37,840 nt of DNA from Saprospiraceae bacterium (GTDB lineage: Bacteria; Bacteroidota; Bacteroidia; Chitinophagales; Saprospiraceae), in contig JAIPBL010000060.1 of NCBI GenBank assembly GCA_021739645.1, positions 1 to 37,840 of the forward strand, in the 5' to 3' direction. Positions 159-24,651 of the stretch are shown here, piece after piece; the stretch's first letter is position 1, and every line of letters begins with the position of its first letter. The notes below the pieces were generated by a model, which saw nothing but the letters and a program-made list of their open reading frames with translations, made no database searches and was not told the DNA's origin. The position numbers and the translations under genes are program-made.

Positions 159-202
159 ATGACAAAAATCATGGCCATATCTTCCGGGTTTCCTGATTTT
201 TG
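159..202 (+). promoter_or_regulatory. Crp/Fnr-like box and -7 element upstream of the His-rich gene
   Basis: ATGAC-AAAA-ATCAT at 159-172 fits RTGAY-N4-RTCAY. Its centre (165.5) is 36.5 bases before the last G of GATTTTTG (195-202), a weak version of the Bacteroidota -7 element TAnnTTTG. No TTTG lies about 20 bases upstream of the -7, so the promoter would need an activator. The same arrangement recurs at 1283 and 21471. Assignment to the Crp/Fnr protein at 23948 is inference. Confidence 0.5.
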
Positions 203-222
203 CACCTAAAAAACGGCTATTC

Positions 223-615
223 GTGAAACACCAGGCATTGTCATATTCCCTCCTCTTTCTGTTTTTGTTCGGGTCACTCGTGCCCGGCCAAACGCAAGAG
301 GAATTGACACGGTTGCCAATACTCTGGAAGCACTATCAGGTACATAAATCGCAGGCTCCCACCAGTTCCCTTGAATACCTAGAGCTTCACTACGGCAAAG
401 ACTTCGCCCAACATAGCTCGGAGCATGACCACTCCAAACTGCCGATGAAAAGCGGCGACCACCACCTGCATGCGCCCGCACCTACCGATTTGCCACAACC
501 AACTTTGGTCTGTTTCCAGGCACTTCCTTTTTTGAAAATAGCCCCGAGCTTCAACGACCAGGCTTATTATCTCCTCCTCCTCTACGACATCTGGCAGCCG
601 CCGAAATCCTGTTGA
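223..615 (+). CDS. Small exported His-rich protein, paralogue 1
   Basis: A 130-residue protein starting at GTG. It has a hydrophobic signal peptide (about residues 5-24, ending near VPGQTQ), a middle region rich in His and Asp (HYGKDF, EHDHSKLP, HHLHAP), and a conserved tail DIWQPPK. It is exactly as long as the protein at 14524-14916 and shares HYG, HDHSKLP, HLHAP and DIWQPP with it. The second copy sits directly before a heavy-metal RND pump, so a periplasmic metal-binding or metal-sensing role is inferred. I do not recognise a named family. GTG is chosen because it gives a good signal peptide and no in-frame ATG lies upstream before the stop at 160. A Crp/Fnr-like box precedes it. Confidence 0.75.
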   Translation: MKHQALSYSLLFLFLFGSLVPGQTQEELTRLPILWKHYQVHKSQAPTSSLEYLELHYGKDFAQHSSEHDHSKLPMKSGDHHLHAPAPTDLPQPTLVCFQALPFLKIAPSFNDQAYYLLLLYDIWQPPKSC

Positions 616-681
616 TATTCCCACTTTTTATTTGATTTTATTTCACAAACTGCTGATTTTCAGCACTTAAAAATATCAACA

Positions 682-1200
682 ATGGACGCAACACATTTGC
701 ATTTGTTGCTCAATCACTTCCCGATTATCGGGACAGTATTGGGCGTAGGGGTGATGCTATACGGCTATATCACCGCATCCGACCAAGTTAAAAAAGCGGC
801 ACTCTGGACTTGGTTTGCCATGGCTTTGATTGCCATTCCCGTTTTCCTAACTGGAGAACCTGCCGAGGAGTCCGTCGAAGGCATCGCAGGCGTTTCCGAA
901 GGGCTTATCGAACAACACGAAGAGGCGGCCACCGTGGCCATCTGGCTCATGGAAGCACTCGGTTTGCTCTCGCTCGTGACGCTGGTTTTGGGTAAAACAA
1001 AAAACAGTTTGTCCAAGCCGCTCGTGCTGGTTTCGACCGTTTTGGGGCTTGTCGTGTTCGGGGCAATGGCCTGCACGGGCTATCTTGGCGGACAGATACG
1101 TCACAGTGAAATCAGGAGCGGTGCGGCTGCAGCTGGCACTGGCGGCGAGCAGGGTGGCGAAGTCAATGGCGAGGCTGGCGAAGACAGTGATGATGATTAG
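682..1200 (+). CDS. Four-helix membrane protein, DUF2231-like
   Basis: 172 residues with about four hydrophobic helices. The N-terminal motif HLHLLLNHFPIIGT, the central acidic loop with GEPAEESVE and EQHE, and the C-terminal TGYLGGQIRHSEI are typical of DUF2231-type inner-membrane proteins, in which conserved His residues in helices suggest heme or metal contact. The last 25 residues are a low-complexity Gly/Glu/Asp tail. The gene follows the His-rich protein gene by 66 bases and ends just before a strong hairpin terminator, so the two probably form one short transcription unit. Function unknown. The start at ATG 682 gives an immediate match to the family N-terminus. Confidence 0.75.
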   Translation: MDATHLHLLLNHFPIIGTVLGVGVMLYGYITASDQVKKAALWTWFAMALIAIPVFLTGEPAEESVEGIAGVSEGLIEQHEEAATVAIWLMEALGLLSLVTLVLGKTKNSLSKPLVLVSTVLGLVVFGAMACTGYLGGQIRHSEIRSGAAAAGTGGEQGGEVNGEAGEDSDDD

Positions 1201-1211
1201 TACCTGATTTA

Positions 1212-1247
1212 ATGCTGCGGCCTGACAACCTTGTTGGGCCGCAGCAT
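1212..1247 (+). terminator. Hairpin terminator after the DUF2231-like gene
   Basis: An 11-bp perfect stem, ATGCTGCGGCC at 1212-1222 pairing with GGCCGCAGCAT at 1237-1247, with a 14-base loop, 12 bases after the stop codon. No U tract follows, which is common for such hairpins in Bacteroidota. Confidence 0.75.
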
Positions 1248-1282
1248 AAATATTAACTGTTCCTCAAAAAATAGCTTCCAAT

Positions 1283-1344
1283 GTGACCAAGGTCACTGAC
1301 CGCACCATTTCCACGCTTGCATCTTTGCGAAGTGAATATTCACT
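1283..1344 (+). promoter_or_regulatory. Crp/Fnr-like box, -7 element and downstream palindrome before the 1365 gene
   Basis: GTGAC-CAAG-GTCAC at 1283-1296 has perfect palindromic arms. Its centre (1289.5) is 37.5 bases before the last G of the -7-like CATCTTTG (1320-1327). No -33 TTTG is present. At 1331-1344 a second perfect 14-base palindrome, AGTGAATATTCACT, overlaps the expected transcription start and could be a repressor site. Activator at about -42 plus operator at about +1 is inference from position. Confidence 0.55.
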
Positions 1345-1364
1345 AACATTAAAATCAAACTACA

Positions 1365-1778
1365 ATGACAGGCAAAAACAATCTTTCGACCGGCTTCCTC
1401 CTCATGGGTTTTTTCATGGCCTACGGCTTTTTGCTCATCTACCTCCGTGACTTTGCCCCCGGCAAGGAAGAATGGATAGCCCAGTACACCACGGGCAAAC
1501 ACTTTGAGTCGAGGCTGGCGCACGTGCACGGCAACCTGTTCGCTTTCCTGAACATCGTTATCGGCTTTCTGCTACTTCATTTTGGTGGCAGGTTGCGCAG
1601 CGCAAAAGCCATTTCTTGGCTTGCCCTCACGGGTTTGCTGATGCCGCTGGGCATTTTGGCAGAGGTCTATCTTGGCGCACCACCCATTTTCGTACTCATT
1701 GGCGCAGCCGCCATGACGACTGCCGTAGTTTGGCTGGGTGTTTCTTTTTTTAAAATGAAACCGACAAGCGAGGCGTGA
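1365..1778 (+). CDS. Small membrane protein with HVHGN motif, unknown function
   Basis: 137 residues with four predicted membrane helices (roughly 8-28, 54-74, 83-102, 108-130). The loop entering helix 2 carries ESRLAHVHGNLFAFLN. The paired His residues at a membrane edge resemble heme- or metal-binding positions in small oxidase-like membrane proteins, but I cannot name the family. It is the first gene after the Crp/Fnr-like box at 1283 and is followed 44 bases later by the T9SS cargo gene, so the two are probably co-transcribed. A role in the envelope or respiration is only a guess from context. Confidence 0.7.
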   Translation: MTGKNNLSTGFLLMGFFMAYGFLLIYLRDFAPGKEEWIAQYTTGKHFESRLAHVHGNLFAFLNIVIGFLLLHFGGRLRSAKAISWLALTGLLMPLGILAEVYLGAPPIFVLIGAAAMTTAVVWLGVSFFKMKPTSEA

Positions 1779-1822
1779 GCAGAGAAAATATTTTTCAAAC
1801 AATTCAAACTAAATCCACCAAC

Positions 1823-3433
1823 ATGACCACTAAATTAGTGCAAATTATCTTACCACTTTTCCTGGCAGTCGCATTGTCAGGGCAAGCGGAATTTCCTTAT
1901 TCGGTGACGCTGGAACCTTACTCCATCCCCGGTTTGGCTGGCATTCATTCTTACGCACATGGACAGCACGACGGGAAATGGGTCATCATCGGCGGCAGAC
2001 TGGACGGCATCCATGCCCGGCAGCCGTTCAGTGCATTTCCGGCTTCGCAAAATAATACTACCATCCGGGTAGTTGACCCGGAATCCGGGAGCGCGTGGAC
2101 TGCCTCGCTCAACGCTCTGCCCACCGGGCTGCAAGAGCAGTTGCAATCTACCAATATGCAATTTTTCCAGGACGGCGACCTGCTCGTGATAGTTGGTGGC
2201 TATGCTTTCAGTAGTTCCGCAAACGACCACATCACTTTTCCCAACCTCACCACGGTAAATGTTCCCGGATTGATTGAGGACATCATCAACGGCGAACCGA
2301 TTGCAGGGAATTTTCAGCAGATAACCGACGACGTTTTTGCCGTGACAGGCGGTTACCTCGGCAAAATCGGGGACGAGTTTTATCTCGTTGGCGGGCAAAG
2401 GTTTGACGGCAGGTACAACCCGATGAACCACCCGACTTTTGTCCAGACTTACACCGATGCCATTCGTAAGTTTACCCTCGAAAACATTGGCGGCAATTGG
2501 GTTTTTAACAATTATTCCGTCATTTCCGACCCGCTGAACCTACACCGTCGGGACTACAACCTGCTGCCGCAGATTTATCCCGGCGGGGAGTTTGGCTACA
2601 CCATATTTTCAGGCGTTTTTCAGCTAAACGAGGACTTGCCTTTTCTTTATCCGGTTGACATAACCGCTGCCGGGCATGTGCCTGTGGATAGTTTCAACCA
2701 GTATTTGTGCAACTACCACACTGCCCATGCCGCCTTGTTCGACGAGGGTGCAAACGCCATGCACAACCTCTTTTTTGGGGGCATCAGCCAGTATTACTAC
2801 AACGGGGCCACCCTGGTTCAGGACGATAATGTGCCGTTTGTGAAAACCATCAGCAGGGTCAGCAGGGTGGCAGACGGTAGCCTCTTGGAGGCTCGGCTGC
2901 CCGTCGAGATGCCAAGCTATCTCGGGGCGGGTGCAGAGTTGATATTCAACGATGAACTGCCGCAGGCAGCGCCGGGCATTGTCCGCCTTTCGGCGATAAG
3001 TACAGATTCTTTCTTGTTGGGGTACATCGTCGGGGGTATAGAAAGTCCGTCGCAGAACCCATTTGCCTTTAACGACACCGGCATGACTTCCGCAGCAACT
3101 ACCATCTATAAAGTTTACCTCAGCAAGTCTGGCGCAACACCGACCGGGGAGGCAATCATGCCCGGGTACCACGATTTTACCGTCTCGGTTTCGCCCAACC
3201 CCAACAACAGCAGCGTTTTTCGTATCAAAGCGAATGCGCCGGAGGCGGGGAACGTGGAAATTTTCATGGTGGACACCACGGGAAAACTGCTGCTCAACTT
3301 AGGTTTGGAAGGTTTGCAGCAAGGGAAAAACACTTTGGAAGTGGAAATGAAGAACCCAGTCAAAGGCATGGCCTTTTTGAAGGTGCTGTTGAACGGAAAA
3401 TATGCCGCTTCGACAAAAATAATTTTTGAATAA
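1823..3433 (+). CDS. Secreted kelch-like beta-propeller protein with T9SS sorting domain
   Basis: 536 residues from the ATG at 1823, which gives a clean signal peptide (MTTKLVQIILPLFLAVALSG); the open frame extends 48 bases upstream but that would bury the signal. The body has kelch-like strands with repeated Gly-Gly turns (WVIIGGR, LLVIVGGY, FAVTGGY, FYLVGGQ), suggesting a beta-propeller. The last ~85 residues (VSVSPNPNNS..., TGKLLLN, GMAFLKVLLNGK) are a type A T9SS C-terminal sorting domain, so the mature protein should be secreted or anchored on the surface. Substrate unknown. It lies downstream of the small membrane protein under the same Crp/Fnr-like promoter. Confidence 0.85.
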   Translation: MTTKLVQIILPLFLAVALSGQAEFPYSVTLEPYSIPGLAGIHSYAHGQHDGKWVIIGGRLDGIHARQPFSAFPASQNNTTIRVVDPESGSAWTASLNALPTGLQEQLQSTNMQFFQDGDLLVIVGGYAFSSSANDHITFPNLTTVNVPGLIEDIINGEPIAGNFQQITDDVFAVTGGYLGKIGDEFYLVGGQRFDGRYNPMNHPTFVQTYTDAIRKFTLENIGGNWVFNNYSVISDPLNLHRRDYNLLPQIYPGGEFGYTIFSGVFQLNEDLPFLYPVDITAAGHVPVDSFNQYLCNYHTAHAALFDEGANAMHNLFFGGISQYYYNGATLVQDDNVPFVKTISRVSRVADGSLLEARLPVEMPSYLGAGAELIFNDELPQAAPGIVRLSAISTDSFLLGYIVGGIESPSQNPFAFNDTGMTSAATTIYKVYLSKSGATPTGEAIMPGYHDFTVSVSPNPNNSSVFRIKANAPEAGNVEIFMVDTTGKLLLNLGLEGLQQGKNTLEVEMKNPVKGMAFLKVLLNGKYAASTKIIFE

Positions 3434-3497
3434 ACCCCGGACTTTGGGCACTCGCCTACCGGATAATGCCAAATTGACCGCTTTCAACTTGAATAAA

Positions 3498-4094
3498 ATG
3501 GAAATCAAAGACCGCCAATTAGAAATCCTTGAAGCCGCCGGCGCCCTCCTCAACGAGCAGGGCATCGGCGGCTTGACCACCAAAAACTTGGCGAAAAAGG
3601 TGGGCTTTTCCGAGTCGGCATTGTACCGCCACTACGGAAGCAAGGAAGAAATCATCGCAGCCCTGTTGCAATATCTGTATGACCGTATAAAAGAGCGTCT
3701 GCCTGCCATTGTCGCTGGACCGGACGTACCACCTGCTGAACGCCTCCGCCAGCTTTTCGGCAGCCATTTGGATTTCCGTTCGGCGCATCCGCACTTCCTG
3801 ACGGCAGTTTTTTCGGATGGAATGCTCAAATACAGCCCGGCGGTGTACGAAGGTATCATGCAACTCATGTCCGTCATGCGCAACGCTGTCGGGAGCATCG
3901 TGGATGAGGGGCAAAAAAGCGGGGACTTCACAACCGAAATCCCGGCGGAAGAATTGAGCCATATCCTCATCGGTTCGTTCCGCTTGCTCATGCTCCGGTG
4001 GCGCATTTCGGACTTTGGTTTCGATGTGAAAATTGCCGGAAGCCAACACGTGGAAAATCTTATTTTACTCATTTCAAAAAAAACTGAGACATGA
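3498..4094 (+). CDS. TetR/AcrR-family transcriptional regulator
   Basis: 198 residues from ATG 3498; an upstream in-frame start at 3426 would overlap the previous gene and add an unusual extension. The N-terminal helix-turn-helix is clear: ILEAAGALLNEQGIGGLTTKNLAKKVGFSESALYRHYGSKEEII. The C-terminal ligand domain is unassigned. The stop codon overlaps the ATG of the lipoprotein gene (ATGA at 4091), and an RND efflux operon follows directly, so it is very probably the local repressor, autoregulating the whole operon. I see no clear palindromic operator in the 64 bases before the start. Candidate TetR-like palindromes occur at 10699 and 14493 instead. Confidence 0.92.
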   Translation: MEIKDRQLEILEAAGALLNEQGIGGLTTKNLAKKVGFSESALYRHYGSKEEIIAALLQYLYDRIKERLPAIVAGPDVPPAERLRQLFGSHLDFRSAHPHFLTAVFSDGMLKYSPAVYEGIMQLMSVMRNAVGSIVDEGQKSGDFTTEIPAEELSHILIGSFRLLMLRWRISDFGFDVKIAGSQHVENLILLISKKTET

Positions 4095-4507
4095 AAAATC
4101 TAATCTTATTCCTCTTACTCGCCCTGCCGCTGCTACAATCCTGCGGCGGGCATGAACACCATGAGGGCACTTCCCCGCAAGTGCTGTTGGACAACGGCAA
4201 CCGCTGGCAAGCCAATTCTGAAACCACACAGGGCATAGCCGACATGCAGGCGATATTGGCAAAATATGAAGGTAAAACGGAAGCCCTCAGCGACCGCAAA
4301 GCGCTGAGGGAAGAACTGGAAACCGGCTTCCAAAATATTTTCAAACAATGCACCATGACGGGGGAAGCACACGAGCAACTGCACAATTTCCTGCTTCCCA
4401 TGAAGGGAATTTTTGAAAAAATAGACAGCGGAACTGCCGCTGAAAGCCAGGCTGCTATCGGTCAATTGGAAAAACATCTCGCTGACTATCAAAACTATTT
4501 CCAATGA
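4091..4507 (+). CDS. Small lipoprotein of an efflux operon
   Basis: 138 residues with a lipoprotein signal (MKNLILFLLLALPLLQSC, acylated Cys18) followed by a short His-rich stretch GGHEHHEG. The helical rest contains CTMTGEAHEQLHNFLLPM, where Cys, Met and His residues could bind copper or another soft metal; this is inference. It overlaps tetR by 4 bases (ATGA) and the cupin gene by 4 bases (ATGA at 4504), so translation is coupled across three genes. The final codons (LADYQNYFQ) recur as a remnant in front of the second cupin at 11682, showing that the lipoprotein-cupin pair was once duplicated. Confidence 0.82.
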   Translation: MKNLILFLLLALPLLQSCGGHEHHEGTSPQVLLDNGNRWQANSETTQGIADMQAILAKYEGKTEALSDRKALREELETGFQNIFKQCTMTGEAHEQLHNFLLPMKGIFEKIDSGTAAESQAAIGQLEKHLADYQNYFQ

Positions 4508-4791
4508 ACTTACTCGAATTACTGACGCCCACTGAAATGGAGGTTTTTACCCAAAACGTCCTGAAAGAAAAAGCCTCCGCTACCCTGATGCAAATAAAAA
4601 AAGGCGCTGTTTTGAAAGAACACCAAAGTATGACCAATGCCATGCTGGTGCTGCTTTCAGGCAGTGCGGTTTACGATGAAAAAGAAAGGTGGGAAGCCCT
4701 ATCCGAGCCATTGGACTTTGTGCGAATCCCCGCCCATGTAACCCACAAAGTCACCGGGCTGGAAGATTCAGTGCTTTTGCTCATTCAATAA
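4504..4791 (+). CDS. Small cupin-domain protein, copy 1
   Basis: 95 residues forming a single cupin-like barrel: KEKASATLMQIKKGAVLKEHQSMTNAMLVLLSGSAVY, then FVRIPAHVTHKVTGLEDSVLLLIQ. The His residues in KEHQ and PAHVTH match the metal-binding positions of small cupins. It probably acts in the cytoplasm as a binding or stress protein; no enzyme activity can be assigned. It is coupled to the lipoprotein by an ATGA overlap and lies 10 bases before the TolC-type gene. A second copy, of the same length and about four-fifths identical by eye, is at 11682-11969. Confidence 0.88.
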   Translation: MNLLELLTPTEMEVFTQNVLKEKASATLMQIKKGAVLKEHQSMTNAMLVLLSGSAVYDEKERWEALSEPLDFVRIPAHVTHKVTGLEDSVLLLIQ

Positions 4792-4801
4792 CATTCATTT
4801 T

Positions 4802-6115
4802 ATGAAAAATCATATCGTCATATCATTGGTCCTGTTCAGCGTAGCTGTCGCTGTCAACCTCTCTGCGCAAGCACCCGCACTGACGCTCGACCAATGCGTG
4901 GAAATGGCGCTCGGGCACAACCTCAACCTGAAAGCAACTCAACAGGACGCAATATTGGCGCAGCACAAAATTGCGGAAGCCAAAGCCAACCTGCTGCCCA
5001 AATTCAACGGAACGGTGGATTACAAACTTTATGGCGACCTGCCCACCCAACTCCTGCCCGCCACTGTCTTCGGTGGTCTGCCCGACACTTACAAAGCAGC
5101 CGAGTTTGGCGTTCCCCACAACATCGGCGCAAATGTGCAGGGTAGCCTGCCGCTCTACAACCGGGCTGCACGTAGCGCCATCGCCGCTGCCGACAACGGG
5201 GTGGAAATGGCAGAACTGCAAGCGCAAAAAGTGCGGGAAGAAATCATCTGGGAGGTGAGCAGCACCTACTACAATGCACAAATACTGGCGAACCAGCAGC
5301 TTTTTTTACAGGGCAACATCGTCAATTTGAACAAAAGCATTGATGCGGTGCAACTGCTCCTGCAACAGCAGTTGGCCAGCGGCATTGACCTCGACCGGCT
5401 GAAGGTTCAAAAAACTTCCGCTGAAACCCGGCTTTCAACGGTCACGACACAATTTGCCTCCGTCATCAATGCCCTGAAATTTTACACTGGAACGCCGCAA
5501 TCCGACTCCCTTTCCGTTGTCACCGAAACGGCAACAACCCCCGCCGTCCTGGCAGTGGAACGTACTCCACTCGACGTTTCCTTGACCGAGCAACAAATAC
5601 GCCTGCTCGAAAGCGAAAAGCAGGTCGTCCGTTCGGCGATGTACCCGTCGGTGGGTGTGTACGGGCTGTACGGCTACACCGGCTATGGTAAAACAGGCAG
5701 CAACAGCTTCCTCGATTTTTACCCCATCAGCTTTGTGGGGATGCAGGCCAACGTACCCATTTTCAATGGTACGCTGACGAAAAAACGGATGGAGCAAAAG
5801 GACGTGGAAATCATCAAGACCAACTTCCGCAAGGAGTTTTTACTCGAAAAAAATACGCTGGAAAAAGCAAACGCACAATTGCAACTCGAAACAGCCCGGC
5901 AAAATCTTGAAACATTTGAGGCCAATGTCGCCCTGGCCCAGGGGATTTTTGACAAAACCCAACTGCTGCTGTCGGAAGGTCTGGCAACCGTCACCGACCT
6001 CGTGCTAACCGATAACACCGTTCGGGAAGCCCAGCAGGATTACATCGCCGCATTGGTGCAGTTCCGCAAGGCAGAACTTGAGTACAAAAGGACCACTGGC
6101 AACCTGAGATTTTAA
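4802..6115 (+). CDS. TolC-family outer-membrane efflux channel
   Basis: 437 residues with a signal peptide (about 1-22, VAVNLSAQAP) and the two long helical repeats of outer-membrane efflux proteins: LTLDQCVEMALGHNLNLKATQQD at the start, and a C-terminal helical hairpin ending with the family signature (EGLATVTDLVLTDNTVREAQQDYIAALVQFRKAELEYKRTTG). It would form the trimeric outer-membrane exit duct for the adaptor (6322) and RND pump (7539). It lies 10 bases after the cupin gene in the tetR operon. A long palindromic element separates it from the adaptor gene. Confidence 0.93.
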   Translation: MKNHIVISLVLFSVAVAVNLSAQAPALTLDQCVEMALGHNLNLKATQQDAILAQHKIAEAKANLLPKFNGTVDYKLYGDLPTQLLPATVFGGLPDTYKAAEFGVPHNIGANVQGSLPLYNRAARSAIAAADNGVEMAELQAQKVREEIIWEVSSTYYNAQILANQQLFLQGNIVNLNKSIDAVQLLLQQQLASGIDLDRLKVQKTSAETRLSTVTTQFASVINALKFYTGTPQSDSLSVVTETATTPAVLAVERTPLDVSLTEQQIRLLESEKQVVRSAMYPSVGVYGLYGYTGYGKTGSNSFLDFYPISFVGMQANVPIFNGTLTKKRMEQKDVEIIKTNFRKEFLLEKNTLEKANAQLQLETARQNLETFEANVALAQGIFDKTQLLLSEGLATVTDLVLTDNTVREAQQDYIAALVQFRKAELEYKRTTGNLRF

Positions 6116-6133
6116 AAAAAACAAGCTGTGCCC

Positions 6134-6291
6134 CTCGTCCCGTAGGGACGGCATCTTTGTAGAATTCGCACAAAAGCCCATGTTTCCGTTCCGTAGGAAC
6201 GGTATCTAACGCTTTCAAGATGCCGTTCCTACGGAACGGAAAAGGGATATTACTGGGCATTTCTACAAAGATGCCATCCCTCCGGGACGAG
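6134..6291. repeat. REP-like nested palindromic element between TolC and adaptor genes
   Basis: Outer arms of 31 bases (6134-6164 and 6261-6291) are inverted with only 2 mismatches. Inner arms of 25 bases (6183-6207 and 6218-6242) have 1 mismatch. Each arm also contains its own small palindrome (CGTCCC-GTA-GGGACG, CGTTCC-GTA-GGAACG). The ~158-base unit would fold into a long imperfect stem with a second stem inside. This is the architecture of REP/BIME-type extragenic repeats, usually spread by TnpA_REP transposases. In mRNA it could stabilise or separate the upstream and downstream messages. Confidence 0.8.
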
Positions 6292-6321
6292 TGAGTAACA
6301 TCATTTTCTAATAAAATAAAA

Positions 6322-7383: not shown

Positions 7384-7434
7384 GGATTGAGAAGTTTCCA
7401 AATTCCAATTCCTGATTTTCGGTAGTTATTCGCT

Positions 7435-7497: not shown

Positions 7498-7538
7498 ATC
7501 GATTGACTACCTGATTTTCAATTTTCAAATTTCAACTC

Positions 7539-11663: not shown

Positions 11664-11685
11664 TTTTCAAAGCTATTTCAAATGA
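11656..11685 (+). pseudogene. Remnant of the lipoprotein C-terminus before cupin copy 2
   Basis: In the frame that overlaps the cupin ATG by ATGA, this stretch reads LADFQSYFK-stop, against LADYQNYFQ-stop at the end of the intact lipoprotein gene (4478-4507). DNA similarity between the two loci starts at 11655 and 4477 and continues to the ends of the cupin genes with equal length (315 bases each). Only the last ten codons of the second lipoprotein copy survive, overlapped by the end of the membrane-protein gene. Confidence 0.75.
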
Positions 11686-11969
11686 ACTTACTCGAATTGC
11701 AGACCGCCACCGAAAAGGGGGTTTCGACCCAAAACGTCCTGAAAGAAAAAGCCTCGGCAACCCTTATCTCCATTAAAAAAGATGCCGTTCTGAAAGAGCA
11801 CCAAAGCATGACCAACGCCATGCTGGTGCTGCTGTCTGGAAAGGCGGTTTACGAAGAAAAGGACAGGACGGAAAACCTGTCCGCAGCACTGGATTTTGTG
11901 CGCATTCCGGCCCATGCCACCCATAAGTTGACGGGGATTGAGGATGCAAAGTTATTGCTCATCCAGTAG
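11682..11969 (+). CDS. Small cupin-domain protein, copy 2
   Basis: 95 residues, the same length as copy 1 at 4504 and sharing long identical blocks (TQNVLKEKASATL, VLKEHQSMTNAMLVLLSG, LDFVRIPAHATHKLTG). The metal-type His residues of KEHQ and PAHATH are kept. Differences are concentrated near residues 7-15 and 57-68, so both copies look functional but diverging. No enzyme activity can be assigned. It is the last gene before a 203-base gap and probably belongs with the DUF2141 and membrane-protein genes. Confidence 0.87.
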   Translation: MNLLELQTATEKGVSTQNVLKEKASATLISIKKDAVLKEHQSMTNAMLVLLSGKAVYEEKDRTENLSAALDFVRIPAHATHKLTGIEDAKLLLIQ

Positions 11970-14249: not shown

Positions 14250-14251
14250 TG

Positions 14252-14422
14252 CCTGATGAGTACATTCAAAATGTCAATTCCCTGAACGGCAAGTTGCTCG
14301 GCTCCGTCAACCATGACACTGGTTACAAGCCCATGCCCTATCCTGCTGGCACCGCCAAAATGCCGCAGTGCGAGATTGATGTTCTCCGCATTTGGATAGA
14401 AGGCGGGGCGCCAAATAATTGA
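14252..14422 (+). pseudogene. C-terminal remnant of a c-type cytochrome gene
   Basis: Fifty-six codons and a stop, with EYIQNVNSLNGKLLGSVNHD, GYKPMPYPAG, MPQCEIDVLRIWIEGG and the ending APNN. This ending (NG-x-L-x-G, PMP, I-x-x-I-x-x-WI-x-x-GA-x-NN) is typical of the C-terminal half of planctomycete-type or Bacteroidota cytochrome c domains. The CxxCH half and the start are absent, and the sequence joins the IS30 remnant at about 14250. It is clearly broken and lies directly upstream of the promoter of the His-rich gene at 14524. Confidence 0.75.
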
Positions 14423-14492
14423 CGCAACTTTTATCCCGCTCCGGTGTTATTTTGGCTCATAAACCTCATCAGACGCGGGATTTTTTTCCAAA

Positions 14493-14515
14493 AACTAATC
14501 AGATGATTAGTTTTG
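14493..14515 (+). promoter_or_regulatory. Palindromic operator overlapping the -7 element of the metal-efflux locus
   Basis: AACTAATC (14493-14500) and GATTAGTT (14505-14512) are perfect inverted arms around AGAT. The right arm overlaps TAGTTTTG (14508-14515), a full match to the -7 consensus TAnnTTTG, so a bound protein would block RNA polymerase. The ATG of the His-rich gene follows 9 bases after the -7. A metal-responsive or TetR-type repressor is likely; none is encoded next to it. Confidence 0.6.
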
Positions 14516-14523
14516 CACTTCAA

Positions 14524-14916
14524 ATGAAAAAAGTAACTGCCACCATACTCCTTTCACTTTTCCTGTTCAGTGCCCTGCTGCCTGCTCAGGTTCGGGAGGA
14601 TTTGGTGAAGTTCTCCGCCTTGCTCCAGCACTTTCAGGAGCACCAAGCGGAATCGCCCGGACTGACGTTTTTGGATTTTTACAAAATGCACTACGGCGAA
14701 GAATTCACCAAGCACCAAGGCGACCATGACCACTCAAAACTGCCCGGTAAGGAAGTTTGCAACCACTTGCATGCGCCCGTTCCGGCGGTGTTGCCTTCGG
14801 CAATATTAACGGTAAAACCCGTCCCGACAACTGCTCAAAACAAGTCAGTTTTCGCTGACCAATCCTATTCCTTTTCCCTTCCGCAAGACATCTGGCAGCC
14901 GCCAAGAGCCGTCTGA
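14524..14916 (+). CDS. Small exported His-rich protein, paralogue 2, in metal-efflux locus
   Basis: 130 residues from ATG 14524; an upstream TTG at 14419 gives a longer frame, but only the ATG gives a good signal peptide (MKKVTATILLSLFLFSALLPAQ). Shared with the protein at 223: MHYGEEF, HDHSKLP, HLHAPVPAVLP and DIWQPPR, at identical overall length. His and Asp clusters suggest binding of a divalent metal in the periplasm, fitting its place directly before the CzcA-type pump. The family has no name I recognise. It is controlled by a promoter with a perfect palindromic operator, and its stop codon lies inside the left arm of an inverted repeat that fills the spacer to czcA. Confidence 0.8.
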   Translation: MKKVTATILLSLFLFSALLPAQVREDLVKFSALLQHFQEHQAESPGLTFLDFYKMHYGEEFTKHQGDHDHSKLPGKEVCNHLHAPVPAVLPSAILTVKPVPTTAQNKSVFADQSYSFSLPQDIWQPPRAV

Positions 14917-15087: not shown

Positions 15088-15092
15088 AGCTC

Positions 15093-18248: not shown

Positions 18249-18287
18249 TAAAAGTTGATAACCCACTGGCTATCAACCCTTATCAAC
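18234..18287. terminator. Hairpin built of GTTGAT repeats between convergent genes
   Basis: A 17-base left arm (18234-18250) pairs with 18271-18287; the only non-Watson-Crick position is a G-T wobble. The unit GTTGATA or its complement occurs about six times between 18234 and 18296. It sits between the end of czcA (its stop codon is in the left arm) and the end of the minus-strand Uma2 gene, so it probably ends transcripts from both sides. Confidence 0.65.
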
Positions 18288-18311
18288 ATATCAACTTTTA
18301 TAAACCCAAAA

Positions 18312-18974: not shown

Positions 18975-18999
18975 GCGGAAGATTTTAGAAAACAAATTT

Positions 19000-20199
19000 A
19001 TGGCTTTTTATAGAAACATCTATGCCTTGGTATTGGTTGGGCTGTGCCAAATGGGCACTGCCCAAACCATCCTCACCGAGCAGCAAGCCATCGAAATGGC
19101 GCTCAAAACCCACCCGGCGATGGAGGCCACGAGCCAGTACATTCGGCAGCAGGAGGTGCTGAAAAATGCCGGTACGATGTGGGAACATTCACAGTTTTTC
19201 CACAGTGTCACTGCCGACCCCGATTTGGGTCTGTTCGGAACTACGAACTTGGGCATTCAGCAAAATTTCCCTTCGGGAAAAACGACCCGTGCCAACCGTG
19301 GCCTCCACGCCAGCCTGCAAAGGCAGGCCGAAGCACGGCAGGGTTTGACAAGGCAAGAGGTTGTGAAACAGGTGCGTGAAATCTACCACCACCTGAGCTA
19401 CCTCGACGGCAAATCGGCGCTCTACAGCCACCTCGACAGCGTTTATCAACGTGTAGCCAAGGCGGCTGATGCTCGCTACCGGACAGGCGATGTGTCGCTG
19501 GCGGAGAAGCTGGCGGCGCAGGACAAGGCCGCCCAAATCCGGTTGGATGCCCGAACGGTCTATCACGAAATCGAGTTCGACCGCATTGTTTTGGGGCAAA
19601 TACTGGGACTGGGCGAGGCGGTCCAGCCTGTGGTGGAGCGCCTGCACGAGGGTGTGTTTTCCATTGCAGACACCACGCTTTTGCAGACTTCGACGATGGC
19701 GAAATACAGCAAAAGCGCCATCGAAGTGGCCCGCTCGGAGCAGGAATTGACGAAGGCGAAATTTGCCCCAACTGCCTCGGCAGGGGTGTTCGGGCAGTAC
19801 CTCGGCAATGGCGACATCTATCCCGGCTGGCAGTTGGGGCTGAACGTACCGCTGTTCAAAAAGTCGCTCAGGGCGCAATCGGAGGCAGCGGAAATCGGAA
19901 TTGAAGCAGCCAATGCAGCGTTTCGGACTGCCCTTCTGGCCCAGCAAAACGAACTTGGCCACCTCCTCCACGAGCAGGAGAAGTACCTGATTTTACTGGA
20001 ATACTACAATGCCGATGGGAAAGTGCTGGCGGCGGAATTGCTCCGCACGGGCGAGTTGAACTACTCACAGGGCGAACTGAGCTATGCTGATTTTGTGCAG
20101 TTGCTGGAGCAGGCGGCGGGCATCGAGGTGCAGCATTTAGAGAATTTGTTGGGGCTGAACCAGACGATAATTGAGTTGGAGGCACTAACCGGGCAGTAA
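19000..20199 (+). CDS. czcC: CzcC-like outer-membrane efflux protein (TolC family)
   Basis: 399 residues from ATG 19000, giving a signal peptide (MAFYRNIYALVLVGLCQMGTAQ); the longer frame from 18973 is less likely. Outer-membrane factor motifs: ILTEQQAIEMALKTHPAMEATSQY near the N-terminus, NLGIQQNFPSGKTTRANRG, and PGWQLGLNVPLFKKSLRAQSEAAEIGIEAAN in the second half. It should form the outer-membrane duct of the metal efflux system with CzcA (15093) and CzcB (20267). It starts 26 bases from the divergent Uma2 start, so its promoter must lie within or next to that gene. Confidence 0.9.
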   Translation: MAFYRNIYALVLVGLCQMGTAQTILTEQQAIEMALKTHPAMEATSQYIRQQEVLKNAGTMWEHSQFFHSVTADPDLGLFGTTNLGIQQNFPSGKTTRANRGLHASLQRQAEARQGLTRQEVVKQVREIYHHLSYLDGKSALYSHLDSVYQRVAKAADARYRTGDVSLAEKLAAQDKAAQIRLDARTVYHEIEFDRIVLGQILGLGEAVQPVVERLHEGVFSIADTTLLQTSTMAKYSKSAIEVARSEQELTKAKFAPTASAGVFGQYLGNGDIYPGWQLGLNVPLFKKSLRAQSEAAEIGIEAANAAFRTALLAQQNELGHLLHEQEKYLILLEYYNADGKVLAAELLRTGELNYSQGELSYADFVQLLEQAAGIEVQHLENLLGLNQTIIELEALTGQ

Positions 20200-20266
20200 T
20201 TAAATCAAACGTAGGGGGGGTTCAAAACCTCGCCGACGTTAAAAATTTGACAATCAATTATTTACA

Positions 20267-21460
20267 ATGAAAAATACCATCCTTTTCCTTTCCATTCTAT
20301 CCTTACTTTGGTCATGTGGCGATGCCAACCACTCGCACGAAGCTGGCGCAGACCACAACCACGACCACACCTACACCGCCCCTCAAGGTGTGGACGGCTT
20401 CGCACATCTCTCCCCGGAACAAATGAAACTGGCGGATATCGAATACGCCGTTTTGACTAAGCGGAATATCTCGGATGACCTTCGGGTGAACGCACAACTC
20501 GTTGTTCATCAAGAACATACGGCGGCGGTGACGGCCTTTTCCGACGGTATCCTCGCCGACTTGCGCACGTCGCTGAACGCCAACGTACGCAAGGGCCAGG
20601 TGTTGGCCATTGTTCGTAAGCCGGACTTGTTGGATATGCAGCAGCAGTTTTTGGAAAACAAAGACCGGCTGGTGTTCCTGCAATCGGAATTTGACCGCTA
20701 CAAATCGCTGAAAGATGCCGACGCTACGGCCTCCAAAAACTTCCAAAAGGCCGATGCCGACTTGCGGGCAGCGAAGACGACCGCCGCTGTGCTGGCCGCC
20801 AAATTGCGGCAGTACCAAATCAACCCCGACAAGCTGACGGCTGCAAATTTGAGCACCCAGCTCACGCTCACAGCGCCGGTGAGCGGCATCGTTACGGCCA
20901 TCCACACGAATGTTGGAGCAGCGGTGCAGCCGGGCACGCTCGTTTGCGAAGTGATGGACATGAGCCAACTCCACGCCGACCTTTGGGTATATGAAAAGGA
21001 TATTCTGAAGGTGAAAAATGGCCAACAGGTGCAGCTCGTTTTCCCGGCTGATGCATCGAAAACCTATCCGGCAGTGATTTACAGCCTTGACAAAACGCTC
21101 GACCCAGAGAAACGGGCGGTGCGGGTTCACGCCAAATTGCAGGGGAGTCCAGCGGCACAAACCAACTTCGTGAGCGGCGCATTTTTGGAGGCTCGCATCG
21201 CGACCTCGGACAAGGGCGGCTCGGACGCGCTGCCGGAAGTGGCGGTGGTACAGGAGGGCGAGGAGGACTTTATCTATTACCTCGAGAAAGAAAATGCAGA
21301 AGGCCATTTTTTCAATAAAATAAAGGTGGAAAAGGGCGGCTCGGCCAACGGCTTTGTGTTAGTAACACTGTCGGGGGCATTGCCCGAAGGCGCTAAAATC
21401 GTGTCGAAAGGGGCATACTACGTGTCGGCGCAGGGGGCGGGTGTGGCGGTGGAAGAGTAA
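20267..21460 (+). CDS. czcB: CzcB/CusB-like metal efflux adaptor, lipoprotein with His-rich N-terminus
   Basis: 397 residues. A lipoprotein signal (MKNTILFLSILSLLWSC, Cys17) is followed by a His-rich segment (ANHSHEAGADHNHDHTY) that can bind metal. Then come the adaptor domains: EHTAAVTAFSDGILADLRTSLNANVRKGQVLAIV (lipoyl half), a long alpha-hairpin (about 120-185), LTAPVSGIVTAIHTNVGAAVQPGTLV (second lipoyl half), a beta-barrel and a membrane-proximal domain. It links CzcA and CzcC across the periplasm and may hand periplasmic metal to the pump. It is 67 bases after czcC, in the same operon. Confidence 0.92.
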   Translation: MKNTILFLSILSLLWSCGDANHSHEAGADHNHDHTYTAPQGVDGFAHLSPEQMKLADIEYAVLTKRNISDDLRVNAQLVVHQEHTAAVTAFSDGILADLRTSLNANVRKGQVLAIVRKPDLLDMQQQFLENKDRLVFLQSEFDRYKSLKDADATASKNFQKADADLRAAKTTAAVLAAKLRQYQINPDKLTAANLSTQLTLTAPVSGIVTAIHTNVGAAVQPGTLVCEVMDMSQLHADLWVYEKDILKVKNGQQVQLVFPADASKTYPAVIYSLDKTLDPEKRAVRVHAKLQGSPAAQTNFVSGAFLEARIATSDKGGSDALPEVAVVQEGEEDFIYYLEKENAEGHFFNKIKVEKGGSANGFVLVTLSGALPEGAKIVSKGAYYVSAQGAGVAVEE

Positions 21461-21470
21461 AACAGCCTTG

Positions 21471-21514
21471 GTGATAAACATCACAGGTTTGAATTGGAAT
21501 TAGCAATTACTTTG
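21471..21514 (+). promoter_or_regulatory. Crp/Fnr-like box and -7 element of the sulfur module
   Basis: GTGAT-AAAC-ATCAC at 21471-21484 has perfect arms. Its centre (21477.5) lies 36.5 bases before the last G of TTACTTTG (21507-21514). A TTTG at 21488-21491 is only 15 bases from the -7, too close for a normal -33. This fits a class II activated promoter in front of the heme lipoprotein gene, with the regulator encoded a few genes downstream. Confidence 0.6.
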
Positions 21515-21542
21515 CCCCTGCAAAACAAAAAATTGTATCGAA

Positions 21543-21602
21543 ATGAAAAAATTCACCCCAACTGGGCTGCTTCACTTGCATGATAAAAGGCAGGAAAACT
21601 AG
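21543..21602 (+). CDS. Possible 19-residue leader peptide
   Basis: ATG at 21543 opens MKKFTPTGLLHLHDKRQEN then TAG, located between the predicted transcription start (about 21520) and the DUF3365 gene. AT-rich sequence precedes it as for other starts here. There is no homologue to support it, so it may be chance. Confidence 0.2.
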   Translation: MKKFTPTGLLHLHDKRQEN

Positions 21603-21643
21603 CACAGATTAGGGTTTGGGTTTTGTCTAAAAATAAGATAAAA

Positions 21644-22234
21644 ATGAAGGCTTTATCATCGGTTGCAATTTTGTTCATGGTACTGTTTTTGGCACAATGC
21701 ACAAGCGACAAATCTGGTGGGCAACAGCTCACTCCTGACGAGGAAAAAGCCTATTTGGAAAAAGGCAAGGCCATAGCTGAATCCACTTTCGCAGCACTGA
21801 GCGGCAAACTGGCCACAGCCATGGAGGAGGGCGGCGTGGAGGGTGCTGTGCAATATTGTAATTTGGCAGCCATGCCGCTGGTTGACAGCCTCTCGAAGGC
21901 AAACAATGCTACCATTCGGCGCACCAGCCAGAAGCCTCGAAATCCACTTGATGCACCGTCGGAATGGGAAGCTGAAATTTTGGCGGGATTTCAACAATCG
22001 ACCGCCAAGGGAGAAAAGGCAATGCCTAGGTTGAAAATACTGGACAACAATAAAGTGGCCTTTGCGGCACCAATCATCCTCCAACCACTTTGCATGAAAT
22101 GCCACGGAACAGTGGGAACGGACATTGCCGAAGCCGACTATGCCATCATTAAAAAACTGTATCCAAAAGATGAGGCCGTTGGCTACAAACCCGGTGAACT
22201 TCGGGGAATGTGGAGTATTGTGTTTGAGCAATAA
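21644..22234 (+). CDS. DUF3365-type c-heme lipoprotein
   Basis: 196 residues from ATG 21644 (a TTG further upstream is less likely). Lipoprotein signal MKALSSVAILFMVLFLAQC, Cys19. The C-terminal half carries one heme-binding motif, Cys150-x-x-Cys153-His154 in LQPLCMKCHG, preceded by the family context (AVQYCNLAAMPLVD, IRRTSQKPRNPLDAPSEWE). DUF3365 (Tll0287-like) domains are periplasmic heme sensors or electron carriers. Placement at the head of the rhodanese/YeeE genes and behind a Crp/Fnr-like box suggests electron transfer or sensing linked to sulfur oxidation; that is inference. Confidence 0.9.
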   Translation: MKALSSVAILFMVLFLAQCTSDKSGGQQLTPDEEKAYLEKGKAIAESTFAALSGKLATAMEEGGVEGAVQYCNLAAMPLVDSLSKANNATIRRTSQKPRNPLDAPSEWEAEILAGFQQSTAKGEKAMPRLKILDNNKVAFAAPIILQPLCMKCHGTVGTDIAEADYAIIKKLYPKDEAVGYKPGELRGMWSIVFEQ

Positions 22235-22256
22235 GAGAATATTATTTTAAAACGGT

Positions 22257-22264
22257 TACTTTTG
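22257..22264 (+). promoter_or_regulatory. -7 promoter element before the rhodanese lipoprotein gene
   Basis: TACTTTTG is a full match to TAnnTTTG, 54 bases upstream of the ATG at 22318. No properly spaced -33 TTTG and no Crp/Fnr-like box are visible, so it may be a weak internal promoter of the sulfur operon. Confidence 0.35.
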
Positions 22265-22317
22265 AGACCCCAAGAAAAAAGCTTGAGAACTGACTAATCT
22301 TTTCTGAAAATACTAAC

Positions 22318-22695
22318 ATGAAGCAATTTTTCATCCTTTTGTTCCTGACTTTCGCTAGCCTTACATCGTGCACATCCCAGACGGAACCTCAAGGGTACAC
22401 CGACCTGGAAGTCAACGATTTCAAAGCCAAAATAGCCGAGCCAGGCACTGTACTGCTAGATGTGCGCACACCGGAAGAAACAACCTCACTTGGCATGATT
22501 GAAGGAGCCGGCCAACTGGATTTTGAAGCGGACAATTTCGAAGCTGAAATTGAGAAACTGGACAAGGAGAAAACATACTTGGTTTACTGCCGCAGCGGTA
22601 ATCGAAGCGGACAAGCTTGTGCATTGATGGCTCAAAAAGGCTTTAAGAATTTATACAACTTAAAAGGTGGTTATAGGGCTTGGACTGCAGACTGA
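22318..22695 (+). CDS. Periplasmic rhodanese-domain lipoprotein
   Basis: 125 residues. Lipoprotein signal MKQFFILLFLTFASLTSC (Cys18), then a single rhodanese domain: VLLDVRTPEE and the active-site loop with Cys91 in VYCRSGNRSG, ending GFKNLYNLKGGYRAW. It should move sulfane sulfur between carriers on the outside of the inner membrane, for example from thiosulfate or persulfides. It lies in line with the heme lipoprotein upstream (83 bases) and the YeeE/YedE transporters downstream (47 bases), consistent with feeding sulfur to import or oxidation. Confidence 0.93.
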   Translation: MKQFFILLFLTFASLTSCTSQTEPQGYTDLEVNDFKAKIAEPGTVLLDVRTPEETTSLGMIEGAGQLDFEADNFEAEIEKLDKEKTYLVYCRSGNRSGQACALMAQKGFKNLYNLKGGYRAWTAD

Positions 22696-22742
22696 CAGCT
22701 CACTTTAGGGCTAATTCATTAAACTAAAAACGTTTATCAATC

Positions 22743-23306
22743 ATGTTAGAACTAATAAGACAACCTTGGCACTGGTCAACAGCAGGCATATTGATTGGCC
22801 TGATTGTGCCGCTACTACTGATTTTGGGCAACAAGAGTTTTGGCATCTCCGCCAACCTTCGGCATATTTGCGCCGCTTGTTTCCCCGCTGATATTTCTTT
22901 CTTTAAATACGATTGGAAAAAGGAGATATGGAACATTTTCTTTGCCGTGGGCATCATCCTCGGCGGCTTTCTGGCCGTCACTTATTTGCATGACCCCGAG
23001 CAAGTGAAAGTAGCGCCAACATTGGTTTCTGACTTGGCTCAGTTCGGAATTGACGACTATACTAACCTAGTGCCCAATCAGCTATTCAACTGGCACAGCC
23101 TGCTGACTATCAAGGGCTTTTTGTTCATCGTGGTTGGTGGATTCTTGGTGGGCTTTGGTACACGCTATGCAGGTGGGTGTACTAGCGGCCATGCCATCAG
23201 CGGCCTTGCCAATCTTCAATTGCCATCGTTGGTGGCTACCATCTGCTTCATGGTTGGTGGGTTTATCTCGGCCAATCTAATCGTACCGTTTTTGTTAAAA
23301 CTTTAA
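22743..23306 (+). CDS. YeeE/YedE-family sulfur transporter, first half
   Basis: 187 residues with about five membrane helices. The family signature is present: GFGTRYAGGCTSGHAISGLANLQLPSLVATICFMVGG, in which the GGCTSGH Cys is the conserved sulfur-handling residue. A second Cys pair lies in LRHICAACFPADI. In other bacteria a single protein (TsuA) imports thiosulfate through three such cysteines; in Bacteroidota the transporter is often split into two short proteins as here, the partner being at 23318. The substrate is thiosulfate or another sulfane-sulfur compound by family. Confidence 0.9.
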   Translation: MLELIRQPWHWSTAGILIGLIVPLLLILGNKSFGISANLRHICAACFPADISFFKYDWKKEIWNIFFAVGIILGGFLAVTYLHDPEQVKVAPTLVSDLAQFGIDDYTNLVPNQLFNWHSLLTIKGFLFIVVGGFLVGFGTRYAGGCTSGHAISGLANLQLPSLVATICFMVGGFISANLIVPFLLKL

Positions 23307-23317
23307 AAATCTAAGCA

Positions 23318-23845
23318 ATGAGCAAGATAAAATCGGGCGCAACAGCCAACATCGCAGAAACGATGAACACGGACTTTGAAGTTCGGTCCCTAGATGCCCA
23401 AACTGTTAATGGCGGCGAGAAGGATATGTCCTTCTTGCGCAACCTGAAATTCATGCTGGCAGGAATTTTCTTCGGACTAATACTGGTGAAGTCGGAGGTG
23501 ATTTCTTGGTTTCGGATTCAGGAGATGTTTCGGCTGGAATCCTTCCACATGTACGGCGTCATTGGCACGGCGGTAGTGGTTGGAATTATATCTATTTTAT
23601 TGATTAAGAAGCTGAAAATCAAGACGATACATGGTGATGCCATTGAATTTCAGGACAAAAGGTTTACCAAAGGCCAAGTCATTGGTGGGCTTATTTTCGG
23701 ACTTGGATGGGCCATTACAGGTGCTTGCCCGGGCCCATTACTTGCGCAACTTGGCTCAGGTGTTGGCGTCATTTCCATCACCATTTTGAGTGCTGTCGCC
23801 GGCACTTGGGTTTATGGCAAGTTTCGGGATAAGTTGCCGAATTAA
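23318..23845 (+). CDS. YeeE/YedE-family sulfur transporter, second half (DUF6691-like)
   Basis: 175 residues. A hydrophilic N-terminal ~40 residues is followed by four helices. The second family signature, IGGLIFGLGWAITGACPGPLLAQLGSG, contains the conserved Cys in GACPGP. It starts 12 bases after the first half, so the two are co-translated and probably assemble into one channel. The N-terminal extension is longer than needed; a later start at the Met before SFLRNLKF (about 23426) is possible. Confidence 0.88.
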   Translation: MSKIKSGATANIAETMNTDFEVRSLDAQTVNGGEKDMSFLRNLKFMLAGIFFGLILVKSEVISWFRIQEMFRLESFHMYGVIGTAVVVGIISILLIKKLKIKTIHGDAIEFQDKRFTKGQVIGGLIFGLGWAITGACPGPLLAQLGSGVGVISITILSAVAGTWVYGKFRDKLPN

Positions 23846-23947
23846 TGGCTTCGGTGTTTCGCTGTGTTATGGTTTTCTTGTTACGAAGTTTATGATTTTA
23901 CCGAACCATTGAGCAATGAAACCATCATGCAATCCAAAAATCAAACA

Positions 23948-24568
23948 ATGGAAACGAACCTATTTAACGATTTTGAACCGAGGCTAGTCGAAGAAATCGA
24001 AAAGGCGGGGACACTGAAGAAACTCAACCCAGGGGAGGAATTGATGCGCCCCGGTATGTTTGTGCGCTCCATCCCCATCATTCTTTCGGGCAGCCTGAAA
24101 ATTATGCGGCAGGACGAAAAGGGCAACGAGACTTTCCTTTATTTTCTCACAAAAGGGGACACCTGCGCCATGTCGCTCACTTGCTGCACGGCCAACCGCC
24201 CCAGCAACGTGCGGGCCGTGGCCGAGGAATCCACCGAGATGATGCTCGTACCCGTGGACAAGCTCGATGTTTGGATGACCCTGTACCCTTCTTGGAAAAC
24301 CTTCGTGTTTCAAGCCTACCAGCGCCGTTTCGAGGATATGCTCGAAGCGGTGGACAGCTTGGCTTTCCGCAAGATGGACGAGCGCCTATGGCGTTTACTC
24401 AAAAAAAAGGCGGGACTTCAAGAAAAGCGATACGTTTACGCTACCCATCAGGAACTGGCACTTGAGTTGAACACCTCACGAGAGGTAGTGACCCGCTTAC
24501 TCAAGAAGCTGGAAGGCATGGGCAGGATAAAAACCCATCGCAACCGAATTGAATTGATGTTAAAATAA
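23948..24568 (+). CDS. Crp/Fnr-family transcriptional regulator with a Cys-Cys pair
   Basis: 206 residues from ATG 23948; an ATG at 23927 and a GTG at 23864 are in frame but add no recognisable fold. Residues 1-115 form the cyclic-nucleotide-binding-type beta-roll (LNPGEELMRPG, PIILSGSLKIM, LYFLTKGDTCAMSLTCC). About 166-190 is the winged helix-turn-helix (THQELALELNTSREVVTRLLKKLEG). Cys73, Cys79 and Cys80 lie in the effector domain; the FNR-type N-terminal iron-sulfur cysteines are absent. I infer a thiol- or persulfide-responsive regulator of the local genes, acting at the RTGAY-N4-RTCAY boxes. It lies between the transporters and the persulfide enzyme. Confidence 0.92.
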   Translation: METNLFNDFEPRLVEEIEKAGTLKKLNPGEELMRPGMFVRSIPIILSGSLKIMRQDEKGNETFLYFLTKGDTCAMSLTCCTANRPSNVRAVAEESTEMMLVPVDKLDVWMTLYPSWKTFVFQAYQRRFEDMLEAVDSLAFRKMDERLWRLLKKKAGLQEKRYVYATHQELALELNTSREVVTRLLKKLEGMGRIKTHRNRIELMLK

Positions 24569-24606
24569 TTTTGCAAAATAGCTTTCAAAAAACAAATCAT
24601 AGAATT

Positions 24607-24651
24607 GTGACTTTTGCACCTGAACGGCAGCAGTGATTTTTATCATCTTTG
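24607..24651 (+). promoter_or_regulatory. Crp/Fnr-like box and promoter of the persulfide dioxygenase gene
   Basis: GTGAT-TTTT-ATCAT at 24633-24646 fits RTGAY-N4-RTCAY but overlaps the spacer and start of CATCTTTG (24644-24651), a position expected to block rather than activate that -7. A separate half site GTGAC (24607-24611) lies where an activator site would be centred, 37.5 bases before the last G. So this promoter may be activated from the half site and repressed or autotuned from the full site. Confidence 0.4.

Follow-up and report, generated by a model that had tools for sequence, protein, structure and literature searches.

The stretch of DNA considered here, called the window throughout, is the 37,840-nucleotide contig JAIPBL010000060.1 of a Saprospiraceae bacterium (GenBank assembly GCA_021739645.1; positions 1 to 37,840), and its central feature is the gene of a Crp/Fnr regulator, named P_E (23948..24568), which stands among short palindromic boxes. 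The regulator, with the recognition helix TSREVVTR (R178, E179, R183) and Cys73, Cys79 and Cys80 in its ligand cassette, closes a run of genes behind box GTGATAAACATCAC (21471..21484), which is of the subtype linked below to P_E and lies 26 bases before the TTTG of the -7 element TTACTTTG (21507..21514). A Tll0287-like protein (21623..22234) comes first behind this box, followed by a rhodanese (22318..22695), one half of a YeeE/YedE-type sulfur transporter (22743..23306; Sulf_transp, TsuA-like at a score far under the model cut-off) and the second transporter half (23318..23845; DUF6691/Sulf_transp). Next to the regulator gene, a metallo-β-lactamase (MBL)-fold protein with rhodanese domains (24684..26153), by its domain make-up of the persulfide dioxygenase or sulfurtransferase type, has a promoter with the -7 element CATCTTTG (24644..24651) and two sites, a degenerate class II box GTGACTTTTGCACC (24607..24620; left half intact, right half with three mismatches, spacer of 27 bases to TTTG) and box GTGATTTTTATCAT of mixed subtype (24633..24646), which overlaps the -7 element. 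Two more boxes are found near the left end of the window. Box ATGACAAAAATCAT (159..172), of an ATGA..TCAT subtype, lies 26 bases before the TTTG of the -7 element GATTTTTG (195..202), and its probable target is a small His-rich protein (HDHSKLP; 223..615) that belongs to no Pfam family; box GTGACCAAGGTCAC (1283..1296), of the P_E subtype, lies 27 bases before the TTTG of the -7 element CATCTTTG (1320..1327), and the first gene behind it (1365..1778), which has no Pfam or NCBIfam match, looks by its sequence like a membrane protein. All these features are on the forward strand.

The pattern RTGAYN4RTCAY has exactly four matches in the window, at 159, 1283, 21471 and 24633, and shuffling gives an expectation of 0.38 on average, with at least four sites in none of 100 shuffles. 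All four are intergenic, the intergenic share of the window being about 10% on the gene list made in this analysis, so that the four intergenic 14-mers of one pattern described in an earlier note on this DNA are borne out. The distances given there were also correct, the box centres lying 36.5 (159), 37.5 (1283) and 36.5 (21471) bases before the last G of the -7 element, which corresponds to box-to-TTTG spacers of 26, 27 and 26 bases. A correctly spaced -33 TTTG was seen in none of these three promoters, the 21471 promoter having one TTTG only 15 bases upstream of its -7 element, and is present in the box-free promoters at 26179 and 31818 (spacing counted by eye), again as claimed. The class II geometry thus held for 159, 1283 and 21471, but not for box 24633, which overlaps its -7 element; this box was rejected as a class II site, since TTTG at the required spacing is absent and a conserved pair of sites is found instead. 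A near-box, ATGACTTTCATCAA, lies at the end of the MBL gene (26150-26163); from its centre to the last G of the -7 element that follows, the distance is 53.5 bases.

Beyond the window, the whole genome of the organism holds 125 RTGAYN4RTCAY sites versus 45 for a reversed control pattern, and a search for CAAA-N10..40-box, that is, with TTTG on the other strand, gave 78 matches, of which 11 have spacer 26 and 5 have spacer 27, compared with 2.1 for each other spacer. Three of these 16 are the window sites, which leaves 9 and 4. At 58 P_E loci, some selected for an already known box, 42 spacers between GTGA box and TTTG measure 26 bases and 8 measure 27; the loci behind the totals for spacing, motif, promoter, target and covariation are in general a non-random set, some chosen or widened for a known box, and the P_E and P_A locus counts for spacing and helix rows include the own protein twice. 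A set of 60 non-redundant spacer-26 promoters has the A of TAnnTTTG, a base outside the selection criteria, in 83% of cases, and a TTTG within the first 10 spacer bases, the place of the -33 element, in four. A class II activator site lies near -41.5 of the transcription start and replaces the -35/-33 contact; the spacing to the -7 element and the missing -33 TTTG agree with this for the presumed starts, and the promoter anatomy, as read from the DNA, fits a class II activator that would stand in for the missing contact.

Five Crp/Fnr-type proteins of the genome score above the Pfam cut-off, and a recognition helix with Glu and Arg, the residues that read TGA in CRP, is present in two of them, P_E and a receiver-domain Crp, P_A (TAKESVIR; G000:C67:13828-14874, L181, L065), which adjoins a histidine kinase. 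In a family sample of 100 genomes from 99 genera (P_E in 77, P_A in 68), boxes were sought at spacers 26 and 27, and linkage was compared over the 150 sites that head each list. A P_E gene is found at most 10 kb from 43 of the GTGAYN4RTCAC class II sites, and P_A near none of them; for the ATGAYN4RTCAT sites the numbers are 2 for P_E and 17 for P_A (Fisher 2e-13 for these first 150 sites each). The first contact residue pairs with the first base in the same way, Arg of P_E with G and Lys of P_A (in 20 of 21 rows, with the own protein entered twice) with A. The consensus RTGAY-N4-RTCAY of the earlier note therefore joins two boxes, GTGAY-N4-RTCAC linked to P_E and ATGAY-N4-RTCAT linked to P_A, and one regulon for all four boxes was rejected on this linkage to different regulators. 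Mixed boxes at spacer 26 number 8 near P_A and 0 near P_E, at loci partly chosen for boxes, the 20 P_A loci being 20 of 74 P_A matches and about half of them picked for boxes. In a weak test, ATGA sites number 193 in the 68 genomes with P_A and 65 in the 32 without (p 0.017). In a first-pass assignment of targets in the own genome, made by position alone, mixed or ATGA-type boxes were found upstream of CBS and Usp genes.

The letters of the box also follow the protein. All 98 P_E proteins of the 77 family genomes keep Arg178 and Arg183, with Glu at position 179 in 67 of them and Val in the other 31. When 5+4+5 palindromes at spacer 26 or 27 before TTTG were collected free of any motif, GTGAT/GTGAC came up 33 times at 55 Glu-type loci (runner-up 2) and GTAAC 7 times at 22 Val-type loci (runner-up 1), the box linked to Val-type P_E being GTAAC-N4-GTTAC. 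Whole-genome counts, given here with the reversed control in brackets (control sums read from tables by hand), are GTGA 212 [15] and GTAAC 9 [24] in 49 Glu-only genomes, GTGA 8 [3] and GTAAC 29 [5] in 23 Val-only genomes, GTGA 7 [4] and GTAAC 1 [9] in 23 P_E-free genomes, and GTGA 20 [1] and GTAAC 8 [6] in 5 mixed genomes; rank tests between Glu-only and Val-only genomes give 2e-9 for GTGA and 1.4e-5 for GTAAC. A Bacteroidota-wide draw, with P_E in 67 of 198 genomes, added 27 loci (26 outside the family and one within it, from G006): a GTGA box stands at 6 of the 13 Glu-type loci, accompanied at one by GTAAC, and among the 14 Val-type loci GTAAC occurs in 8 and GTGA in 0. Pooled over 124 P_E proteins, Glu goes with GTGA only in 37 and Val with GTAAC only in 20, crossed cases number 0, and both boxes occur in one of each type. 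On a tree built without the helix, the Glu/Val switch provides 2 independent pairs on well-supported branches and 4 on all branches, all agreeing, with fewest changes of 8 for residue 179 and 4 for the box. From linkage and residue–base covariation, P_E very probably reads the GTGA boxes, which supports the claim that the local Crp/Fnr protein is their reader.

The genes behind the boxes point to sulfur. With the target defined as the longest open reading frame (ORF) starting 40-400 bases behind the box, one was found for 54 of 71 boxes and none for 17, and among the 54 ORFs Pfam recognizes rhodanese in 16, the MBL fold in 8, SulP sulfate permease in 7, YeeE/YedE Sulf_transp in 5, thioredoxin and Crp-type regulators in 4 each, and AhpC/TSA, cysteine dioxygenase, a YgaP-type membrane domain, fatty-acid hydroxylase and porin in 2 each (several families are possible per protein, and 25 of 34 families are among those listed). 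Genes of such kinds are also those behind the boxes of the window, namely the Tll0287-like, rhodanese, YeeE/YedE, regulator and MBL–rhodanese genes, and contig C119 of the own genome carries a second MBL–rhodanese gene, whose box GTGATTTTGGTCAC has spacer 27 and stands some 270 bases ahead of the ORF.

Within the window, the 21471 operon, including the regulator gene, and the MBL–rhodanese gene are the best-supported targets. The 21471 box is kept in 6 of 13 named relatives, 1.7-3.9 kb upstream of the regulator gene and between diverged flanks; spacer 26 to TTTG recurs in L221, L222, L223 and L224, and TTCG or TTTA stands there in L226 and L227, while the first gene behind the box varies (Tll0287-like in the window, rhodanese in L222, porin in L224). 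The pair of sites in the MBL promoter, a GTGAY half-site with decayed right half followed by the box over the -7 element, is kept in 7 of the 13 (L221-L225, L227, L228), and L223 and L228 have the overlapping box in decayed form. The L229 contig, which has 48,999 bases like one of the same-genus genome G061 and is apparently identical with it, shows another order, a GTGATGAAAATCAT box and then a degenerate GTGACAATTGTCGC 26 bases before TTTG as counted by eye. The class II site of the MBL promoter is, as far as the letters tell, probably the degenerate GTGACTTTTGCACC at 24607, and its combination with the box over the -7 element is possibly a switch from activation to repression.

The conservation upstream of orthologues that the earlier note asked for is present at 21471 and at the MBL pair and weak at the other two sites. 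Of six orthologues of the 1283 gene, that of the window among them, two have the box upstream, one of the two in a genome with Val-type P_E. Directly behind the -7 element of this promoter lies AGTGAATATTCACT (1331-1344); a repeat like it, imperfect in several cases, is found near the promoter in all six orthologues and is perhaps the operator of the TetR-type repressor encoded at 3426-4094. The protein encoded at 223-615 is found in 9 of the 100 genomes besides the two copies of its own genome (10 places in the list below that of the window, some of them weak). Among the located copies, in G023, G061, G031, G058 and at 14542 in the own genome (four others were not located), G023 has a box, GTGACAAATATCAC of the GTGA..TCAC class II form at spacer 26, in front of a match that holds an internal stop, and the other four have none upstream. 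Because box 159 is of the ATGA..TCAT subtype linked to P_A, it probably belongs to this other regulator, which it fits better than P_E. Among the remaining genes of the window, the proteins at 223-615 and 14419-14916 are related small His-rich proteins (HDHSKLP), 41% identical and both near resistance-nodulation-division (RND) efflux genes, and two closely similar small cupin-like ORFs lie at 4504-4791 and 11682-11969.

P_E itself belongs to the CRP/FNR superfamily, with PF00027 (cNMP-binding β-roll) and PF13545 (Crp-type winged helix) over cut-off, and its box is, in the motif-free search also, the palindrome of this superfamily, two 5-base half-sites 4 bases apart (GTGAT/GTGAC or GTAAC). No NCBIfam model scores over its cut-off. 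An AlphaFold model built on 14 sequences (mean predicted local distance difference test score, pLDDT, 84.3; predicted TM-score, pTM, 0.60) has CRP/CAP chains first among the 50 Foldseek matches listed, with TM-scores of 0.5-0.6. Cys73, Cys79 and Cys80 are the only cysteines of the protein, an N-terminal Cys cluster being absent; in the alignment with CRP they fall into the cassette that holds cyclic AMP (cAMP), and in the model Cys73 lies just ahead of the short cassette helix and Cys79 and Cys80 within it. Cys73 is present in 97 of the 98 family proteins and in all 27 further ones, the complete trio in 72 and 19, respectively. Three cysteines in the cAMP cassette together with sulfur-gene targets make a thiol-based sensor of sulfane sulfur the most likely reading of the signal, one that we infer from alignment, model and neighbourhood. 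P_E paralogues such as L175, L177, L178, L179 and L180 have lost Cys79, some also Cys80, and kept Cys73, and several of the Cys79-less paralogues adjoin GTGAC-N4-GTCAC boxes.

The computed box, geometry, linkage, residue–base covariation and target classes lead us to infer binding, activation, read-through, start sites and signal as follows. A P_E dimer would bind GTGAY-N4-RTCAC at a distance of 36.5-37.5 bases, measured from the box centre to the last G of TAnnTTTG, that is, near -42, and would replace the missing -33 contact. It would act on the 21471 operon, with the Tll0287-like protein, the rhodanese and the two YeeE/YedE halves, on its own gene by read-through from there, and through the 24607 box on the MBL–rhodanese gene, whose promoter may be limited by box 24633. 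At Cys73 and Cys79/Cys80 it would probably sense sulfane sulfur or a different thiol-reactive species. That the P_E clade, present in 67 of 198 Bacteroidota genomes, is a class II activator of sulfur-handling genes through GTGAY-N4-RTCAC, with sulfane sulfur or thiol-reactive species as the probable signal, we consider likely and hold with considerable confidence. Only tentatively, and with some doubt, do we propose the wider reading that in this Bacteroidota clade the cassette has turned into a Cys site for sulfane sulfur (persulfide or polysulfide), that sulfur detoxification and transport genes are activated from -42 without a -33 element, and that the Glu/Val switch rewrites GTGAY to GTAAC.

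Several findings weigh against this interpretation. No box of either kind lies within 3 kb of 65 of the 124 P_E proteins, many of whose loci span less; a connection with sulfur is not evident for some of the 54 target ORFs; and at least one of the three cysteines is missing in 26 of 98 family and 8 of 27 further proteins. Over all 100 genomes GTAAC numbers 47 versus 44 for its reversed control, the excess being confined to Val-only genomes, a GTAAC site is found in 8 of 49 Glu-only genomes and a GTGA site in 7 of 23 Val-only genomes, and the 2-4 independent Glu/Val pairs are too few for a sign test. Genome G030 (L235, G030:C123) has a Val-type P_E, yet a GTGA class II box stands before its orthologue of the 1283 gene.

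Other explanations of the boxes were weighed against these data. The pattern is short and degenerate, and its reversed form has 45 sites in the genome, but enrichment, spacing peak, linkage and covariation contradict chance palindromes, a chance origin being next to negligible. A single regulon, in which all four RTGAY-N4-RTCAY boxes are activator sites of the local Crp/Fnr protein, would draw on their intergenic position, their excess over chance and the GTGA..TCAC class II box before the G023 homologue of the 159 gene; the two subtypes with their different regulators, the position of 24633 over a -7 element and the mixed spacer-26 boxes, which lie near P_A and not near P_E, make it improbable. 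The observation of the earlier note is confirmed and larger than claimed. Its reading was right in the core, namely that the local Crp/Fnr protein has class II-like sites, and wrong at the edges, where there are two boxes for two regulators, a fourth site of another kind and weak conservation at 1283 and 159.

Another Crp/Fnr paralogue might instead read all the boxes, with P_E a mere neighbour. The own genome encodes four more Crp-type proteins, and P_A in particular has a Lys-Glu-x-x-x-Arg helix and ATGA boxes of the same spacer around it; against it, no P_A gene has any of the first 150 GTGA class II sites in the list within 10 kb, and GTGA sites number 7 in 23 P_E-free genomes versus 212 in 49 Glu-only ones. 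Since the letters follow residue 179 of P_E itself, such a reader is very improbable. It is rather unlikely, though less far-fetched, that P_E reads the boxes but senses oxygen, nitric oxide or the general redox state, with the sulfur genes as downstream responders. Oxygen sensing has a precedent among CRP/FNR proteins in FNR, and in the own genome Usp and CBS genes stand behind the neighbouring P_A-type boxes. For nitric oxide, DNR is named as responsive (PMC1274295). P_E, however, has three cysteines only and no N-terminal cluster, and sulfur transport and transfer are the commonest target families near it.

A regulator corresponding to P_E was not described in the literature among the matches listed, most subscription journals lying outside the coverage. 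Sensors of reactive sulfur are known from other families, such as the ArsR-type SqrR, BigR and YgaV, the CsoR-type CstR, FisR, OxyR and PerR; if the sulfane-sulfur reading of P_E is true, a CRP/FNR clade would give the Bacteroidota a sulfur regulator, would explain their clusters of Crp, MBL–rhodanese and YeeE genes, and would show class II activation on their unusual -33/-7 promoters. FNR, an iron-sulfur oxygen sensor with an N-terminal Cys cluster and a TTGAT-N4-ATCAA box, differs from P_E, which has Cys73, 79 and 80 only and GTGAY or GTAAC boxes. The best sequence match in the PDB, 3DV8 (E 1.3e-14), a Crp/Fnr family protein of Eubacterium rectale, also has Cys at two of the three corresponding positions of the cassette, but is from outside the Bacteroidota and is named merely a putative regulator. 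E. coli CRP, a class II activator with the consensus TGTGA-N6-TCACA, resembles P_E in fold, in the Arg-Glu-x-x-x-Arg helix, in the core of its consensus and in the presumed centre near -42, and differs in its targets, in the Cys trio of the P_E cassette and in the NCBIfam CRP score (50.6 versus a cut-off of 266). CRP contacts cAMP with Glu72, Arg82 and Ser83, of which in P_E the Arg alone has a counterpart, the Glu standing opposite a gap and the Ser opposite Pro85. The cyanobacterial nitrogen regulator NtcA has Val at the same helix position and the box GTA-N8-TAC; Val-type P_E shares its Arg-Val-x-x-x-Arg helix, but P_E scores 33.9 against the NCBIfam NtcA model, with a cut-off of 244.95. 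No hcp-type family is among the 25 of 34 target families listed, to which this statement, made without a direct hcp search, is limited. According to PMC1274295, HcpR, HcpR2, DNR and NnrR pair their boxes with residues 180/181, Pro going with GTAAC, and HcpR2, a CRP/FNR protein with predicted hcp control, has Pro at 181 and the box GTAACnnnnGTTAC. Val-type P_E has this same box and, like HcpR2 as described there, a pairing of residue and box; unlike HcpR2, P_E has Glu or Val instead of Pro and has sulfur-transfer genes for neighbours, the window protein going with Glu and a GTGA box and the Val types being without Pro. The pairing of residue and box makes the specificity of P_E testable by a single-residue swap.

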